From the NCBI RefSeq assembly GCF_010672455.1, contig NZ_JAAHGO010000073.1:1-43955 (forward strand): DNA of 43,955 nt. Reading direction: 5' to 3'. Position numbers and translations under genes: made by a program. This document shows positions 32,754-40,596 of the stretch, piece after piece. How positions within the stretch are numbered: position 1 is the first letter of the stretch; each line of letters starts with the position of its first letter. This DNA comes from Okeania sp. SIO2C9 (GTDB taxonomy: Bacteria; Cyanobacteriota; Cyanobacteriia; Cyanobacteriales; Microcoleaceae). The notes below the pieces were generated by a model that saw nothing but the letters and a program-made list of their open reading frames with translations, did no database searches and had not been told where the DNA came from.

Positions 32754-33305
32754 CTATCTGCCTTGAGTTAGATCGGCATAAATAATAATTTCTATGCCTA
32801 AAACTACTAATAGAATAAGTTCAAAAGCACAAAATATATAAATTACTAGAGAAAGATTTGTACCTAGAGACCAGAACGCAAATAAAGCTACTAAACCAGA
32901 TAATACAAAAGTAATTTCATCAATAATTAACTGCTCTATTTTGCGTCTTCTTCTTCTTTCATCACTTCTATGAGCAATCTCCCAACCAAAGATAGATTCG
33001 ATATCTGAATCATCTATTTGTGCTTTGATTTTTTCGGTGAGAGTCAATCGAATATATTTTCCAAGAGCAGAGATTTTTTCATCATTAACTAAATAAGTCC
33101 AACCGAGAATTAGGCAAACCCAAGGAATAACTAAGAGGGCATAAAAATTAGTTTTATTTGATAGAGCAAAAGAGAGAATTCCGCCAAATATTCCCAGTGT
33201 TAGATAAATTATTTGGTCTCGGAAGGCAATACGTTTGAGTTGTTCATCTTTCAATTTTTCATATTCTAGTAGAAAAACTTGAAGTATTGGTTTTTGGTCG
33301 TTCAT
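32754..33305 (-). CDS. Four-TM membrane protein of unknown function
   Basis: About 183 residues from the ATG at 33305 (MNDQKPILQVFLLEYEKLKDEQ); a longer frame to 33350 adds a poorly supported hydrophobic start. Two hydrophobic pairs (about 30-70 and 130-178) flank a cytosolic section with a basic RSDERRRRRKIEQL. The N-terminal EYEKLKDEQLKRIAFRD type helix followed by two TM segments is common in cyanobacterial proteins of unknown function. I do not recognise a named family. It is divergent from the STAND operon that begins at 33848; a functional link is only possible. Confidence 0.6.
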   Translation of the reverse strand: MNDQKPILQVFLLEYEKLKDEQLKRIAFRDQIIYLTLGIFGGILSFALSNKTNFYALLVIPWVCLILGWTYLVNDEKISALGKYIRLTLTEKIKAQIDDSDIESIFGWEIAHRSDERRRRRKIEQLIIDEITFVLSGLVALFAFWSLGTNLSLVIYIFCAFELILLVVLGIEIIIYADLTQGR

Positions 33306-33847: not shown

Positions 33848-35809
33848 ATGGCTTGTGCGGTTATTTTAACAGCAATTCGTATCGAATATATGGCAGTACG
33901 CGCTCATCTTAGTGACTTGACGGAGGAGATGCACCCTAATGGGACAATTTATGAGAGGGGTAAATTTTCTATTGGTAGTCAAAAGTGGGAAGTGGTTATT
34001 GTCCAGACTGGTGCTGGAAATTTATCAGCAGCTATGGAAGCAGAGAGAGCGATCGCCTATTTTAATCCTGATGTAATTCTGTTTGTTGGGGTAGCTGGAG
34101 GAATTAAAGATGTCCAACTGGGAGATGTGGTAGCTGCTACTAAGGTTTATGGTTATGAGTCGGGAAAGGTGGCTGAGACTTTTAGACCAAGGCCGGATGT
34201 TGGTCTTTCAAATTATAATATGATTCAACTGGCAAAGGCTGAGGCTAAAAAAACTGATTGGTTGGCTAGATTTTCTGATTCAGCTAAACCTAATGTATTT
34301 GTTGCTCCTATTGCTGCGGGAGAAAAGGTAGTTGCTAATAAAAAATCAGATTTATTTGAGTTTCTTCAGCAAAGTTATGGTGATGCTTTAGCTGTGGAAA
34401 TGGAAGGTCGTGGTATTTTGCAAGCTGCTCATGCTAATCAACAGGTTTCGGCGTTAATTATTCGGGGTATTTCTGATTTAATTGATGGTAAAAGTAGGGC
34501 GGATAAAGAAGGTTTTCAAGAAGTAGCTGTTCGTCATGCAAGTGCTTTTGCATTTCAGGTTTTATCAAAGCTTAGAGTTGGGCAAGAAAACAATTCAAAT
34601 TCTGCTAATAATTCTCTAGAAAAGGAACCAAGAACTCCTAACTTTTTTGCTTATGATGATGCTTGGGTTGGTCGTGAAAGTCTAATTAATGAATTAACAA
34701 ATAAAGTTAAAGGTTCATGTCGTTTATTGATTTTAGTAGGGATTACAGGAATAGGGAAAACGGCTTTAGGAGAAAGATTAGCAGTTGAATTAGAAGGCTG
34801 GTTTTATGATTGGAATTATTATCTACAAGAGAATTTTGATAATGAAGAACAAACATCTGATTTTGGTAGTGTCGCAGCTAGATTATTAGAAAAATCTGGT
34901 GAAGTAGTGACACCAGATGACCGTAAAGATGCTCAAATGTTAATGGATCGTTTGGTAAGGCATTTACAAGAGAATCGTTATTTAATTCAAATTGATTCTT
35001 TAGAAAACATTTTGCAGGGAAATGAAGAGGAAGGATGGAATGATTTTATAGATGAATGGTGGGTGAAATTTATTAAAGCTTGGTTGAGTTTTGATACTTG
35101 TGAAAGTTGTCTGATTTTAACCTCCCAAGATTTACCAGCACAAATTCCTTCTGTAGGTACTCGTTCTCAAAATTTTTGGTTATGTCAACCTTTAAGTGGT
35201 TTAGAAGAATTGGAACAGTTAGCCTTGTTTAATAAAACAGGATTGGATGTTAGTCCAGAAGCAGAAGGAAAACCTTATTTAGAAAGAATTGGACGAGCTT
35301 ATGAAGGTCATCCTTTAGCTTTACGGATAATAGCTGGTGAAATTGTGAATCCTCCTTTTAATAGGAATGTTTTAGGATATTGGAATAAGTATGGAAAAGA
35401 AGTTGAAGAGGTAGAAAAAGCAATTGAGGAAGCAAAAACGAAGGAAATAATAGCATCGAAAGATGACCAGTATAATTTACACAAATTTACTAAAAATTTA
35501 CGCAGAAATGTTGAACTTCGTTTAGAAAAGGCATTTAATCGTTTAGAAGAAGGAGTACATGATGCTTATTTATTGTTGTGTGAATCTTCTGTTTATCGCT
35601 GTGAAGTACCAGAGGATTTCTGGTTAAGTCATTTGGAAGATTGCGATATTGATAAAGATATGTGGCAAATGGCTTTAGATGCTTTGAAAGATAGATATTT
35701 AGTTGAGGAAAGAGTTGATGAAAATAATGAATATTTAGTAAGGCAACACAATTTAATTCGTGGAGTATCTTCGGAAAGGTTAAAAAAATTAGATGAGGAA
35801 GATGAATAG
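33848..35809 (+). CDS. Nucleoside-phosphorylase-like domain fused to a STAND NTPase
   Basis: 653 residues. Residues 2-~240 form a PNP/MTA-nucleosidase-like domain: LTAIRIEYMAVRAHL, IVQTGAGNLSAA, ILFVGVAGGIKDVQLGDVV, AVEMEGRGI (E184/E186) and IIRGISD (D210). Residues ~265-430 form a STAND/NB-ARC ATPase with P-loop GITGIGKT (298-305), Walker B LIQIDSLE (near 380-386) and ILTSQDLP. GHPLALRI and a winged-helix-like segment (~540-653) follow. The sensor repeats usually found C-terminal to this are missing and lie in the next two genes. PNP-type domains on STAND proteins are known immune effectors that can act on ATP or other purines. The stop overlaps the next start (GATGAATAG). Confidence 0.85.
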   Translation: MACAVILTAIRIEYMAVRAHLSDLTEEMHPNGTIYERGKFSIGSQKWEVVIVQTGAGNLSAAMEAERAIAYFNPDVILFVGVAGGIKDVQLGDVVAATKVYGYESGKVAETFRPRPDVGLSNYNMIQLAKAEAKKTDWLARFSDSAKPNVFVAPIAAGEKVVANKKSDLFEFLQQSYGDALAVEMEGRGILQAAHANQQVSALIIRGISDLIDGKSRADKEGFQEVAVRHASAFAFQVLSKLRVGQENNSNSANNSLEKEPRTPNFFAYDDAWVGRESLINELTNKVKGSCRLLILVGITGIGKTALGERLAVELEGWFYDWNYYLQENFDNEEQTSDFGSVAARLLEKSGEVVTPDDRKDAQMLMDRLVRHLQENRYLIQIDSLENILQGNEEEGWNDFIDEWWVKFIKAWLSFDTCESCLILTSQDLPAQIPSVGTRSQNFWLCQPLSGLEELEQLALFNKTGLDVSPEAEGKPYLERIGRAYEGHPLALRIIAGEIVNPPFNRNVLGYWNKYGKEVEEVEKAIEEAKTKEIIASKDDQYNLHKFTKNLRRNVELRLEKAFNRLEEGVHDAYLLLCESSVYRCEVPEDFWLSHLEDCDIDKDMWQMALDALKDRYLVEERVDENNEYLVRQHNLIRGVSSERLKKLDEEDE

Positions 35810-37463
35810 CTTAAAAACTTCTAATGAATCTGTTCTTCGGCCACCAAATTTTACAATTCAAATAAAACAGTTAATATCCGAGATTGATAGTGTTTTACTG
35901 AGGCACAATAATTATAATTTTTCTCGTTGGAAAAAAGCTCATTACAAAGCAGTTAAAAACTGGTTGTTAAAATATAAACCACCAGAAAATAATCCATCAA
36001 ATTTAGCAATAATAACGGGATATATAGAAGCTTTATATCATTTATGTAAAGTTGAAGATTGGGATAAAGTAAAAAAAATATTATCTATGAATGTCGATAA
36101 TAATTTCCCCGATTATCAATTTCATAATCAACTAGGAATTTGGGGACTATATAAACAACAGATTAGTATTTATTGCAGTTTGCTGGAAAAAATAGATTAT
36201 CAATGGGATTGTAGATTTTTAGAGGGTCTTGGTAATGCTTATGATGCTTTAGGAAACCATGAAAAAGCGATTGATTATCGTCAGCAATGGAGGCAAATTG
36301 CACAGAACATTGGAGATAAAAAAGAAGAAGGAAAAGCACTATGTAATTTAGGTATTAGTGATTCTTTTTCGGGTGATTTAGTTTTAGCTGCCTTTAATGT
36401 TGATAAAGATAACTTAAGATCTATCAAGCCTATGTGGAAAAGAAGCAATTATACAGCCATTGTTAACTGGCTAACGAAATATTCAGTTAATTCAAATTCT
36501 TCTAATTTAGAGAAATTAAAAGGATTCATAGAGACTTTTTTTCATTTTTGTGGAGTGGAATCATGGTTAGAAGCAAAAGAAATTCTTCTAATTCGCTTAG
36601 ATACACCTACGAATGAAGAATTACACCAACAATTGCAAACCTGGGGCTATTATAGAGAGGCAATGGATTTATATTTCAAGCTTTTCGGAAAATTAGATTC
36701 TTGGTGGGAAGCAATTACTTTAACAGGTATTGGTAAAGTCTATATTGCTACTGGGGATTTTTATAAAGCTATTGACTATCTTCAAAAGAGTCTAGCTATT
36801 AGTAAAAATATAGGAGCTATACAAACAGAGATAAATGTATTAAATAATTTAGGAAAAACGTACCGCTTTCTAGAAAATAATTATGCTGCAATTCAAGCTA
36901 ATATTGAGAGTTTAAGAATCGCAAAGAACACTGGAAATCGAATTAATGAAAGTTTAGTAATGAGTGATTTAGGTGTCACTTATGTTGCTATTAAAGATAA
37001 TAAAAAGGCACTTTACTATCTTCAAAAAAGTTTAGATATTGCACGTTAAACTGATAACAAACTAGGACAAGTAAGTGCATTAGAAGGTTTAGGTATTTTC
37101 TATCTCCAAGAAAATGATTATGACCATGTAGTTGAATATTCTCAACAACAATTAGCTGTTAGTCGTGAGATTGAGTATCGTAAAAGTGAGGCAACTGCTC
37201 TTCGTAATTTAGGTGAAGCTCAAATCAACTCTTTGGAGCATTTGAAAGCCTCTAATTATTTAGAAGAATCTCTAGGAATTTTTCAAGAAATTAGCGATAG
37301 GTATAATGAAGCTATTTGTATTTATTCCCTAGGTCAAAAATACTATAAATATGGGTACGTTGAAAAAGCAGAATTTTTTCTTACACAAGCTTTATATTTG
37401 TCAAGAAGTCTCAATCTTCCTTTAGAAAAAAACTGTTTAGAATTACTAAAATTAATCAAATGA
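35802..37463 (+). pseudogene. TPR sensor protein with one in-frame TAA
   Basis: Starts at ATG 35802, overlapping the STAND stop, with GAGGAAG as ribosome site. It reads 415 codons to TAA at 37047-37049 (LDIAR*TDNKLGQ). It then continues in the same frame for 137 codons to TGA at 37461-37463. Two copies of a ~110-residue helical module (WKKAHYKAVKNWL..., and WKRSNYTAIVNWLTKY...) each precede TPR units such as AIDYLQKSLAISKNIG. After the stop the TPRs go on (GLGIFYLQENDYDHV). The expected codon at the stop is CAA (IARQTD), so a single C-to-T change explains it. The final stop overlaps the next ATG (ATGA), so the original gene was coupled. It might still make a 415-residue protein. Confidence 0.75.
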
Positions 37464-39505
37464 ATAATCAGGAAAAACTAGATACTCAAAAAAAAATTGC
37501 TTCTAAAAATCTTAATGTGATACCTTCGAGTGAGTCAATTTTGGAAAAAATTGGTATTGATTTAACTCAAATAAAGTCAATTAAACCCCGTAGTAAAAGG
37601 AGTCAGTACCGAGCAATTATAAATTGGCTAACGAAATATAAACCTAATCCAGAGGGTTCTAATTTAGAGAAAGTTAAAGGTTTGTTAGAGACATTTTTTC
37701 ATTTGTGTGGAGTAGAAGACTGGGAAAGAGCTAATAAAATTACTGGGATTAAATGTAATACTCCTACCCATGATGAGTTACATATTCAATTAGCCACTTG
37801 GGGCTACTTTTCGGAAAGAATTAAATTGGAAAGCCAACTTTTAGGTAAGTTAAATGCTGAAATTGATGGTATTTGTTTAAGTGGTTTGGGTAATGCTCAC
37901 TATTTTTTAGGAGAATACGAAAAAGCTATTGAATATCATCAGCAACATTTAACAATTGCTCAAGAAAGAGGCGATCGCTTTCAAGAGGGAACAGCATCAG
38001 GAAGTTTAGGTAATGTTAACTACTCTTTGGGAAAATACGAAAAAGCTATTGAATATCACCAAAAACATTTAGCAATTGCTCAAGAAAGAAGCGATCGCTT
38101 AGGTCAAGGAAGAGCATTTTCTAACTTGGGGAGTGTTTATCATTCTATGGGAAAATACCAAGAAGCTATTGATTCTTATCAGCAACATTTAACTATTATA
38201 AAAGAAAATGAAGACCCTCTGGGAGTGGGAAGAGCTTTAGGAGGTTTAGCTACAGCTTACAAATCTTTAGGAGAATATCAGAAAGCTATTGAATATCATC
38301 AACAACAGTTAGCAATTGCAAGAGAGATAGAAGACCGTGGTAACGAAGGGATGGCGCTAGGAGGTTTAGGAGTTGTCTATACCTTATCAGGAAAATATAA
38401 AAAAGCGATTGACTATCACAAGCAACACTTAGATATTGTTAAGGAAATGAAACAGCGCAGTAGGGAAGGCTTACCATTGACAAATCTAGGTGCTACTTAT
38501 TATTCAATGGGAGATTATGAGCAAGCAATTAACTACTATAACCTCAGTTTAGGTGTTGCACGTTCTGTTGGTAGTCTAGCTGAAGAGGGTCATAGTTTGG
38601 GAAATTTAGCTAATGCTTATAATGCTCTGGGAAAATATAATCAGGCACTTGATTACTACCACCAAGGTTTGAATATTGCACAGAAAATTAACGATCGAGT
38701 TAATAAAGGAATGATATTGAAGAATTTAGGAACTATTTATTATTCTCAAAGAAATTACAACCAAGCAATTAGTTGTTACCAGAAAGCTTTAAATATTGCT
38801 AAACAAACAGGTAATTTATCAAATATAGGAGTAGCATCTGGAAGTTTAGGTAATGTTTTTCATCGCTTGGGTAACTATGACTTAGCTCTGGAGTACCACC
38901 AGCAGCATTTGAGTATTGCAAAACAAATTGGAAGTCCTAACAGTCAAGCTGCGGCAATGGGAAATTTAGGAAATGTTTACTTTGCTCTCAAAGATTACCA
39001 CAAAGCATTAGATTACCATCGTCAACAGTTGCAAATTGCTGAAAAAATTGATGCTGTTGCGATGAAAGCAACTGCTTTATGTAATTTAGGTGCTACTTTG
39101 ATGGAACTTAATCAAAATATAGAAGCACTCGAACCTTTACAACAAGCATTAGATATTTATCGCCAAATTGGTAGTCGTCCCGAAGAAGTTATAACTCTTT
39201 ATAATTTAGCCGAACTTTATCATAAGTTAAACGATGATAAGTTGGCACATGATTTTTATAAGCAAGGTTTATCTATTGCTCAGGAGTTAGAAATTTTTCT
39301 AAAAGAGAGCCAGGAGTTAAAAGAAAAATTGTTCAATACTTACCTCCAAGAAATAGATGAAAAAGATACCCGTTATTTAATGAAATTACCATTAGAAGAA
39401 AGACGAAAAATTTTGGCAAAGCAAGCCGAAAAAATGTTGGAATATTATCAGCAAGATACAGAATGGCAAGATTTACAAACTTGGGATGAATTATATGAGG
39501 AATGA
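37460..39505 (+). CDS. TPR sensor protein with MazE-like antitoxin C-terminus
   Basis: 681 residues. Residues ~35-150 are the same helical module found twice in the previous gene (RSKRSQYRAIINWLTKYKPN, FFHLCGVEDWE, LATWGYFSERI). About 150-610 hold eleven or twelve 40-residue TPR units of the G-x-A-x-x-S-L-G-x-Y-x-K-A-I-E-Y-H-Q kind, with strongly repetitive DNA. The last ~50 residues change character: YLMKLPLEERRKILAKQAEK, then MLEYYQQDTEWQDLQ. This is the pattern of small cyanobacterial antitoxins paired with MazF/PemK. The ATG of a MazF-like gene lies inside its last codons (39495). It would sense a ligand for the STAND ATPase in trans and may also hold the toxin in check; both are inferences. 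Confidence 0.85.
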   Translation: MNNQEKLDTQKKIASKNLNVIPSSESILEKIGIDLTQIKSIKPRSKRSQYRAIINWLTKYKPNPEGSNLEKVKGLLETFFHLCGVEDWERANKITGIKCNTPTHDELHIQLATWGYFSERIKLESQLLGKLNAEIDGICLSGLGNAHYFLGEYEKAIEYHQQHLTIAQERGDRFQEGTASGSLGNVNYSLGKYEKAIEYHQKHLAIAQERSDRLGQGRAFSNLGSVYHSMGKYQEAIDSYQQHLTIIKENEDPLGVGRALGGLATAYKSLGEYQKAIEYHQQQLAIAREIEDRGNEGMALGGLGVVYTLSGKYKKAIDYHKQHLDIVKEMKQRSREGLPLTNLGATYYSMGDYEQAINYYNLSLGVARSVGSLAEEGHSLGNLANAYNALGKYNQALDYYHQGLNIAQKINDRVNKGMILKNLGTIYYSQRNYNQAISCYQKALNIAKQTGNLSNIGVASGSLGNVFHRLGNYDLALEYHQQHLSIAKQIGSPNSQAAAMGNLGNVYFALKDYHKALDYHRQQLQIAEKIDAVAMKATALCNLGATLMELNQNIEALEPLQQALDIYRQIGSRPEEVITLYNLAELYHKLNDDKLAHDFYKQGLSIAQELEIFLKESQELKEKLFNTYLQEIDEKDTRYLMKLPLEERRKILAKQAEKMLEYYQQDTEWQDLQTWDELYEE

Positions 39506-39857
39506 TAATTTACCCAAGCGGGGAGATATTTGGCTAACAAATTTCGACCCAACTATTGGAGCATAAATTAGAAAGATTCGTCCGGCGATTATCATTAGTT
39601 CCGATGGTATTGGTAGATTACCAATTAAGTTAATTGCACCTATTACTGATTGGAAAAATTATTTTAATAATGATAGTTGGCACATTAAAATTGAACCGGA
39701 TTTAGAAAATAATTTAAGCAAAGTTTCTACTGTTGATTTATTGCAAATAAGAGGAATGGATTTGCAAAGGTTAGTTAAGAAAATAGGTGTTTGTTCTAGT
39801 GAAGTTATGGATAAAATATCAGCTGGTATTGCTTTACTTGTAGAGTACGAAGGTTAA
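39495..39857 (+). pseudogene. MazF/PemK-type toxin with one in-frame TAA
   Basis: Overlaps the TPR-antitoxin gene by 11 bp. The frame reads MRNDNLPKRGDIWLTNFDP with TIGA and then TAA at 39564-39566. It continues IRKIRPAIIISSDGIGRLPI, LIAPITDW, DLLQIRGMDLQRLVKKIG to TAA at 39857. These are the core MazF motifs (KRGDIW..., K.RPA.I.S.D, APIT, Q.R..D..R), 120 codons in all. Homologues have Glu or Gln at the stop position (TIGAEIRK), so a single substitution would explain it. As it stands only 23 residues can be made. Confidence 0.85.
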
Positions 39858-40002: not shown

Positions 40003-40596
40003 CTACGCTTGCTCTGTGTTTTCTGAAGTTTCAAAATTAACTCCTTCGTATAAAACCTCAATAGCTGAAGTAAATTCAATACTCTCTAATGTAATAGACT
40101 CACCTTCTGTATACCCACAATAATTCCAAATTTTTCCCTCTCCACGTTGATAAATTTCTACAGATATTGATTCTGAATCTACTAAAACATATTCTTGCAA
40201 ACTAGGAAATTGACGATAATATTTCAACTTATCGCCGCGATCGTATTTTTGCGTACTAGGGGAAAGCACCTCAACAATGACTGTAGGATGTTTAATAAAG
40301 TCACGAGATTTTAAATCTTCAGTATTACAAGTCACTACTAGATCGGGATAAAAATAACGATTATTTTTACTATCCTGAACTTTCACATCCGAAACATAAG
40401 CTTCACAACCTCTTTTACTCAAATGAGGTCTTAAAGCTGTATATAAATTGAGGTAAATTTTAGTATGAGGAATAGTTCCTCCAGTCATAGCTAAAATTTC
40501 ACCGTCTACATATTCATGGCGAAATTCCTGTTTAGCTTCCCATTCTAGATATTCTTCTGGGCTAATTTTTTGATAATCTTGGGGTTGAGCAATCAT
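40003..40596 (-). CDS. Uma2 family endonuclease (DUF820)
   Basis: 197 residues. Uma2/DUF820 proteins have a PD-(D/E)XK-like restriction fold and are highly expanded in cyanobacteria; their role is poorly known. Landmarks: SPEEYLEWEAKQEFRHEYVDGEILAM (E-x-R-x-E-Y-x-D-G), YFYPDLVVTC (catalytic PD), HPTVIVEVLSPSTQKYDRGDK (E-V-L-S-x-S-T) and YRQFPSLQEYVLVDSE. All key residues are present. It lies 15 bp downstream of a 55-residue gene on the same strand, so it is likely co-transcribed. Convergent with the STAND operon. Confidence 0.93.
   Translation of the reverse strand: MIAQPQDYQKISPEEYLEWEAKQEFRHEYVDGEILAMTGGTIPHTKIYLNLYTALRPHLSKRGCEAYVSDVKVQDSKNNRYFYPDLVVTCNTEDLKSRDFIKHPTVIVEVLSPSTQKYDRGDKLKYYRQFPSLQEYVLVDSESISVEIYQRGEGKIWNYCGYTEGESITLESIEFTSAIEVLYEGVNFETSENTEQA

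Follow-up and report, generated by a model that had tools for sequence, protein, structure and literature searches.

The locus and its reading frames

The window analyzed in this study, i.e., the whole stretch of 43,955 nucleotides of contig NZ_JAAHGO010000073.1 (assembly GCF_010672455.1) from the cyanobacterium Okeania sp. SIO2C9, contains an operon that encodes a PNP domain joined to a STAND ATPase (gene 1), two TPR proteins (genes 2 and 3), and a MazF-like frame, with a small membrane protein gene on the opposite strand beside the PNP end (Table 1). The operon is probably a member of a widespread family of split NLR-like operons, the PNP type of which has this membrane protein as a constant partner, and the copy in the window is probably impaired. 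Genomes compared with it are denoted by G numbers and fetched stretches by L numbers; G001 to G004 belong to the same genus.

Table 1. Features of the PNP-STAND locus, with positions in the window
Feature	Position	Strand	Description
Small membrane protein gene	32754..33305	-	183 amino acids (aa) counted from ATG, with four hydrophobic segments; transcribed divergently; accompanies the PNP gene in relatives
Gene 1	33848..35809	+	653 aa; PNP domain (aa 5-238), linker, STAND/NLR-type NBD-HD1-WHD (aa 270-652)
PNP part of gene 1	33848..34563	+	90-93% DNA identity over full length in six related genomes at the site; five lose DNA homology at 34564-34574
Swapped stretch (end of NTPase gene and TPR genes)	35600..39361	+	versus same-genus G004, only 281 bases alignable, at 66%
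Gene 2 as present	35793..37049	+	418-aa TPR protein with two N-terminal NT module copies; closed by in-frame TAA 37047-37049
Gene 2 frame beyond the stop	37050..37463	+	137 codons, more TPRs; continuous with the rest of the frame in the Moorena orthologue
Gene 3	37460..39505	+	681 aa; NT module followed by about 12 TPRs and a MazE-like tail at the C-terminus
MazE-like tail of gene 3	39362..39505	+	DNA 97% identical to G004; TPR part hardly alignable
MazF frame, start	39495..39566	+	23 aa; closed by in-frame TAA 39564-39566
MazF frame, remainder	39567..39857	+	96 codons; PemK_toxin match; zero amino-acid changes versus G004
Uma2-family gene	40003..40596	-	Right end of the island

The initial annotation, made from the sequence alone, described four overlapping frames and did not list the conserved membrane gene. 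The overlapping starts are present: the ATG codons of gene 2 (35793) and of the MazF frame (39495) lie ahead of the stops of gene 1 (35807-35809) and gene 3 (39503-39505), and the ATG of gene 3 (37460) overlaps the far end of the gene 2 frame (37463). Genes 1 and 3 are open, but gene 2 and the MazF frame are each broken by an in-frame TAA (at 37047 and 39564), so the four-frame layout is valid only with readthrough of both stops. Readthrough or recoding was set aside, as open orthologous frames are known for both genes, i.e., a single 567-aa frame in Moorena (L009) for gene 2 and the G004 frame for MazF; recent nonsense changes or base errors are for this reason the simpler account. The ratio of nonsynonymous to synonymous substitution rates (dN/dS) of gene 2 versus Moorena is 0.40 before the stop and 0.53 after it. 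In the MazF frame, no in-frame ATG, GTG, or TTG occurs between the stop and 39741. The 96 codons past the stop differ from G004 by no amino acid at a synonymous divergence (dS) of 0.035, and the stop is thus either very young or a base-calling error. Because gene 2 is cut short, besides the broken MazF, the operon copy is probably impaired, and translation that now ends about 410 nt ahead of gene 3 may lower the expression of gene 3.

The assignment of genes 2 and 3 to TPR proteins holds, with gene 2 truncated at 418 aa. Both are strongly matched by the PADLOC models PDLC01169 'TPR' and C3a156, the names of which resemble those in lists of CRISPR-linked genes.

A PNP-armed engine with putative sensors on separate genes

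Residues 5 to 238 of gene 1 match PNP_UDP_1 (Pfam; E 1e-27), and weak AAA_16/NB-ARC-type matches start at about residue 273. In the predicted structure, residues 260 to 652 superpose on NRC1, NRC2, Apaf-1, and MalT, winged helix included, and the chain ends at residue 653, where Apaf-1 and NRC2 continue into their sensors. Gene 1 is thus predicted to be a PNP-type nucleosidase followed by a complete NBD-HD1-winged-helix module, which agrees with the annotation of a nucleoside-phosphorylase-like domain joined to a STAND ATPase that stops after its winged helix; the end of the gene coincides with that of the winged helix in the superposed model. The P-loop NTPase with NBD, HD1, and winged helix and the N-terminal effector domain that characterize STAND/NLR proteins are present, while C-terminal sensor repeats are absent from the chain and are found on genes 2 and 3. 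The PF01048 domain carries the acidic residues of the nucleosidase site, and we take VEMEG and GISD to be its catalytic-residue motifs, after MTA/SAH nucleosidase. No PNP fold appears in the structural match list; the model is poor in this part, so the list has no bearing on the fold. The dN/dS of gene 1 is 0.22 versus Moorena.

The separation of engine and sensor was surveyed in 195 genomes drawn evenly from the order, by means of the family NTPase (90 matches in 66 genomes) and the N-terminal module of the TPR proteins, abbreviated NT (109 matches in 64 genomes). For 96 of the 109 NT matches, a family NTPase is encoded upstream on the same strand at a distance of up to 22 kb, and another 4 have one nearby in a different arrangement. 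Among the 75 NTPase matches with NT downstream, 65 are split and 10 are fused (the script called 66 and 9; in G113, an NT that shares the frame lies beyond the script cut-off, and this locus was recounted by hand as fused). In the fetched loci, duplicates removed, 35 of 37 NTPase frames end within 14 residues of the winged-helix match (in L056 and L069, the latter at a contig end, that match is itself incomplete) and the other 2 are fused to TPRs; an NT/TPR gene lies on the same strand within 1.5 kb of 32 of the 35 split frames. A hand comparison of six genomes gave a similar picture, with all 14 NT matches adjoining a family NTPase and one genome devoid of any. The placement of the sensor repeats on separate genes is supported by these counts, and a local frameshift or assembly fault as the cause is ruled out, the split being the rule in relatives. 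The fused homologues, which include a 1618-aa frame with PNP, SEFIR, STAND, NT, and TPR parts in G043, indicate that engine and TPR parts belong together.

Several NT-TPR genes may stand behind one NTPase: eight in G204 (one of which encodes a 1388-aa PNP-containing protein), five in G223, four in G175, six NT-bearing frames in Nostoc NIES-3756, and at least four in Leptolyngbya. Four of these five loci are of the PNP type. Further domains occur on the same scaffold, namely SEFIR between PNP and NTPase (G175, G204, and G043), a second PNP at the C-termini of TPR genes (L038, L139, and L140), EAD8 (G213), and, read by eye, transmembrane-like C-termini on 5 of 28 last TPR genes (L043, L045, L047, L057, and L074), and the view that the scaffold takes up putative effectors is supported by all four. 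The PNP-SEFIR-STAND chains of L139, L140, and L040 each carry two effector-type domains, and in L139 and L140 it is the neighboring TPR protein that bears the second PNP.

The small membrane protein is conserved beside PNP, with a mean column identity of 67% over 12 homologues, nine of which have four hydrophobic segments and three of which have three (our own reading). Its gene is present in 13 of 13 distinct fetched PNP-STAND loci versus 0 of 31 fetched NTPase loci without PNP, as counted by hand on stretches of 4.8 to 20 kb; the loci are related and hence not independent, so that a Fisher value for this contrast is no independent probability, the membrane gene of the G043 locus lies in the neighboring stretch L143, and L129 was fetched because of its membrane gene. 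In a phylum sample of 386 genomes, the gene occurs in 7 genomes at 8 places, 7 of which are near a PNP-fold gene; at the eighth (G315, L130), no PNP-fold gene was found in the 14 kb fetched. Seven plasmid records contain it, two of which had already come up in other searches, and six also have a PNP match, one being a Streptomyces plasmid. Neither the window copy nor the Streptomyces relative gave a Pfam match below E 0.01, and a PADLOC search returned no match for the relative tested and only a weak one for the window copy. A putative membrane partner of PNP effectors is thus seen as a component both in cyanobacteria and on one Streptomyces plasmid. Two other genes were noted at such loci: the membrane gene and PNP-STAND are separated by a gene for a 1383- to 1386-aa protein that matches PNP, TPR, and PIN-TPR-GreABC (L133, 4486-8646; L129, 7054-11202), and a telomere resolvase (ResT/TelK) match lies beside PNP and the membrane gene on a Nostoc plasmid (L131, 9072-10433).

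Exchange at the chromosomal site and the MazE-like tail

The island lies between flanks that we take, by their sequence, to be ribH and a CBS-domain/nucleotidyltransferase-like gene, and the comparison covers these flanks and one empty site. Versus G004, DNA identity is 95-97% in the outer flanks, 90% in Uma2, 93% in PNP, 97% in the MazE-like tail, and 99% in MazF, whereas the NTPase is 71% identical over 43% of its length and the winged-helix end 66% over 59%. Since the stretch between is hardly alignable in DNA, the TPR genes, together with the end of the NTPase gene, are swapped relative to G004. The NTPase DNA is 86% identical over 99% of its length to that of Moorena (L009). In G001, G002, G010, G016, and G025, homology ends with the PNP domain; behind the same PNP, G001 has EAD8, AAA_5, and vWA (VWA_CoxE) genes, of which the AAA_5 gene is, by our own label, a MoxR. 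Other machinery follows the same PNP at this chromosomal site in L055, L058, and L064, being EAD8/AAA_5/vWA by Pfam in L055 and alike by eye in the other two. G011 has both flanks, separated by about 0.7 kb in which no island gene lies. G003 retains the first part of PNP, followed by a deletion and then by DNA from inside gene 3 to Uma2, in which only the final 164 codons of gene 3, including the tail, and a 58-codon piece of MazF remain open. A gene for an OrfB_IS605/TnpB-type transposase was observed elsewhere on the contig (24443-25627, minus strand).

The C-terminus of gene 3 is a weak match to the NCBIfam MazE model NF050104 (E 8e-5, 23 bits, cut-off 65), and the second part of the frame behind it matches PemK/MazF (Pfam; E 1e-15). 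A MazF-like domain behind a candidate TPR-antitoxin is present, as annotated, but the window holds no functional MazF frame. As for the check proposed there, a search of relatives for a conserved order PNP-STAND/TPR/TPR-antitoxin/MazF, the order PNP-STAND, TPR-MazE tail, MazF, and Uma2 is found as open frames in G004 and as a relic in G003, and G001 and G002 have other genes at the site; as far as searched, the MazF-bearing order is confined to one genus. With the MazF fragment as query, phmmer (E up to 1e-3, loci fetched by then) returned only the window and L011/L039, both of G004, and no MazF lies behind the last TPR gene in 28 other loci read by eye, which rules out MazF as a general component of the system. 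Across the order, 106 of 388 genomes carry the MazE-like tail, and every listed match outside the window and G004 belongs to an open frame no longer than 269 aa, so that the TPR-MazE fusion is a genus-level event as far as searched. A remnant of the tail was also noted on the opposite side of the island in G016 (L110, 2526-2684). On these comparisons, the putative MazE tail and MazF are a lineage-specific, local add-on.

Whether this add-on has anything to do with the NLR-like system is evenly balanced in our estimation, as the tail and MazF may be a hitchhiking pair that landed at the end of a TPR gene. MazE-like/MazF pairs of this family also occur on their own (L081 in G016 and L105 in G158); among the matches listed, only the window and G004 have the tail fused to an open TPR frame; and of the three genomes with MazF at the site, two (window and G003) have it broken. 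On the other hand, the two TPR genes to which the tail is joined in frame hardly align in DNA, and the junction has thus outlived the sensor swap; other effector-type domains also occur on TPR C-termini, such as the second PNP mentioned above. The idea of a toxin-antitoxin recruited as a second effector is weakly supported, by the intact order in G004 and the relic in G003, against the break in the window and the restriction to one genus; SEFIR, the second PNP, and EAD8 on the scaffold make it plausible in kind.

Interpretation and comparison with known systems

We consider it somewhat more likely than not that the locus encodes a cyanobacterial NLR-like system of abortive infection, with the ATPase engine on one protein and the sensors on others. 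Through its NT module, a TPR protein would attach to the winged-helix end of gene 1 and stand in for the sensor absent in cis; binding of a trigger (phage or other element) to the TPRs would allow nucleotide exchange and oligomerization; and the clustered PNP domains would cleave ATP or another purine nucleotide, by which the infected cell would be stopped. Several TPR genes behind one NTPase could serve as alternative sensors, and the MazE tail with MazF could free a second, RNA-cutting effector, although MazF is broken here. More tentatively, and with somewhat less than even confidence, the operon may be read as a whole helper-sensor NLR network, in which a PNP-armed ATPase is common to an expandable row of up to eight TPR sensors docked through NT, with the membrane partner, NTPase/sensor cassettes exchanged between constant effector ends, and extra effectors (SEFIR, second PNP, and MazF) bolted on.

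Several observations weigh against an immune system of this kind. The PNP part of the model is poor, with a predicted local distance difference test score (pLDDT) below 50 over residues 83-137 and 152-224, and the closest solved structures to it by sequence are MTA/SAH nucleosidases. The dN/dS is raised, i.e., 0.47 versus the same-genus G004, besides the two values for gene 2 given above. In the survey, 9 of 109 NT matches have no NTPase nearby and 15 of 90 NTPase matches have no NT downstream (one is the second piece of a counted gene and some are fragments), and the NT-TPR arrays are a minority, since 58 of 66 script-called split loci have a single NT match. The neighborhood check for a defence island proposed in the initial annotation did not yield one in what was scanned: among 18 window stretches, Pfam gave no other clear defence gene. 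Finally, the PNP-less sister NTPases could be transcription regulators rather than immune proteins. As a rival explanation, the split NTPase and TPR proteins might be a regulatory, MalT-like STAND pair that senses a metabolite or stress, with PNP as a metabolic or second-messenger enzyme and no killer. We regard this as unlikely, because the variety of effectors on the scaffold (SEFIR, EAD8, and stacked PNP), the swapping of NTPase and TPR genes together with an empty site among related genomes, and the plasmid copies in Nostoc and Leptolyngbya argue for conflict rather than housekeeping. That the locus is a decaying, functionless pseudogene cluster in this particular genome is a serious possibility, though we lean slightly away from it. 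The two in-frame TAA stops fit such decay, as does the sister genome G003, in which most of genes 1 and 2 is deleted and the gene 3 and MazF frames are broken; yet gene 1 (653 aa) and gene 3 (681 aa) are unbroken, 418 aa are left in gene 2, and the unchanged MazF codons past the stop point to a very recent change or a base-calling error.

PNP effectors of NLR-like systems are represented by Cap17 (Rousset et al. 2023), which we compared through its table row in PMC10952713. The PF01048 PNP domain in an NLR-like system is shared, and gene 1 matches the PADLOC effector model PDLC00759; as far as that row describes Cap17-type systems, the window differs in its TPR sensors on separate genes and in the small membrane gene beside PNP. 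A 947-aa PNP-NB-ARC-TPR protein on a Streptomyces anthocyanicus plasmid (L136) has the same three parts in the same order, but in a single chain. PNP and AP-ATPase parts are also employed by MoxR-vWA ternary conflict systems, and FxSxx-type systems, with TPRs on the vWA protein and TIR-AP-ATPase as a separate gene, are a precedent for TPRs apart from the NTPase, according to the parts of Kaur et al. 2020 (PMC7159879) consulted. EAD8, AAA_5, and VWA genes follow the same PNP at this site in G001, whereas the window operon has no MoxR-type or vWA gene by Pfam, and a row of NT-TPR genes behind one NTPase was not found in those parts of the account of MoxR-vWA systems. In MazEF, the MazF domain and, by a weak match, the MazE-like C-terminal tail are shared, while in the window the N-terminus of the antitoxin is replaced by a TPR protein and the toxin frame is broken. 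In Detocs, the partners of PNP are sensor kinase-like and receiver-like genes. The PNP effector is common to Detocs and the window locus, but membership was ruled out, as no kinase- or receiver-like Pfam match was found in eight stretches (genes 1 to 3, the MazF pieces, Uma2, and the membrane gene). Detocs is summarized in the excerpt of PMC11249213 as a three-gene, two-component-like system with an ATP-degrading PNP effector. Among the matches listed, no title or abstract described a PNP-STAND gene accompanied by TPR genes of their own and by the membrane gene.

The NBD-HD1-WHD fold is common to the single-chain STAND proteins (6mfv with a TPR sensor, MalT, Apaf-1, and the NRC helper NLRs), which keep their sensor repeats in the same chain, whereas gene 1 stops after the winged helix. 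The NLR/STAND structures that match gene 1 thus hold engine and sensor in one chain, unlike the split family, an apparent bacterial relative of the immune receptors of animals and plants, with engine and sensors encoded by separate genes. If the helper-sensor reading is true, experiments could address how an NLR engine is switched on by sensors in trans and whether added sensor genes widen recognition, and the operon would correspond in bacteria to the helper-sensor NLR networks of plants while being small enough for reconstitution.

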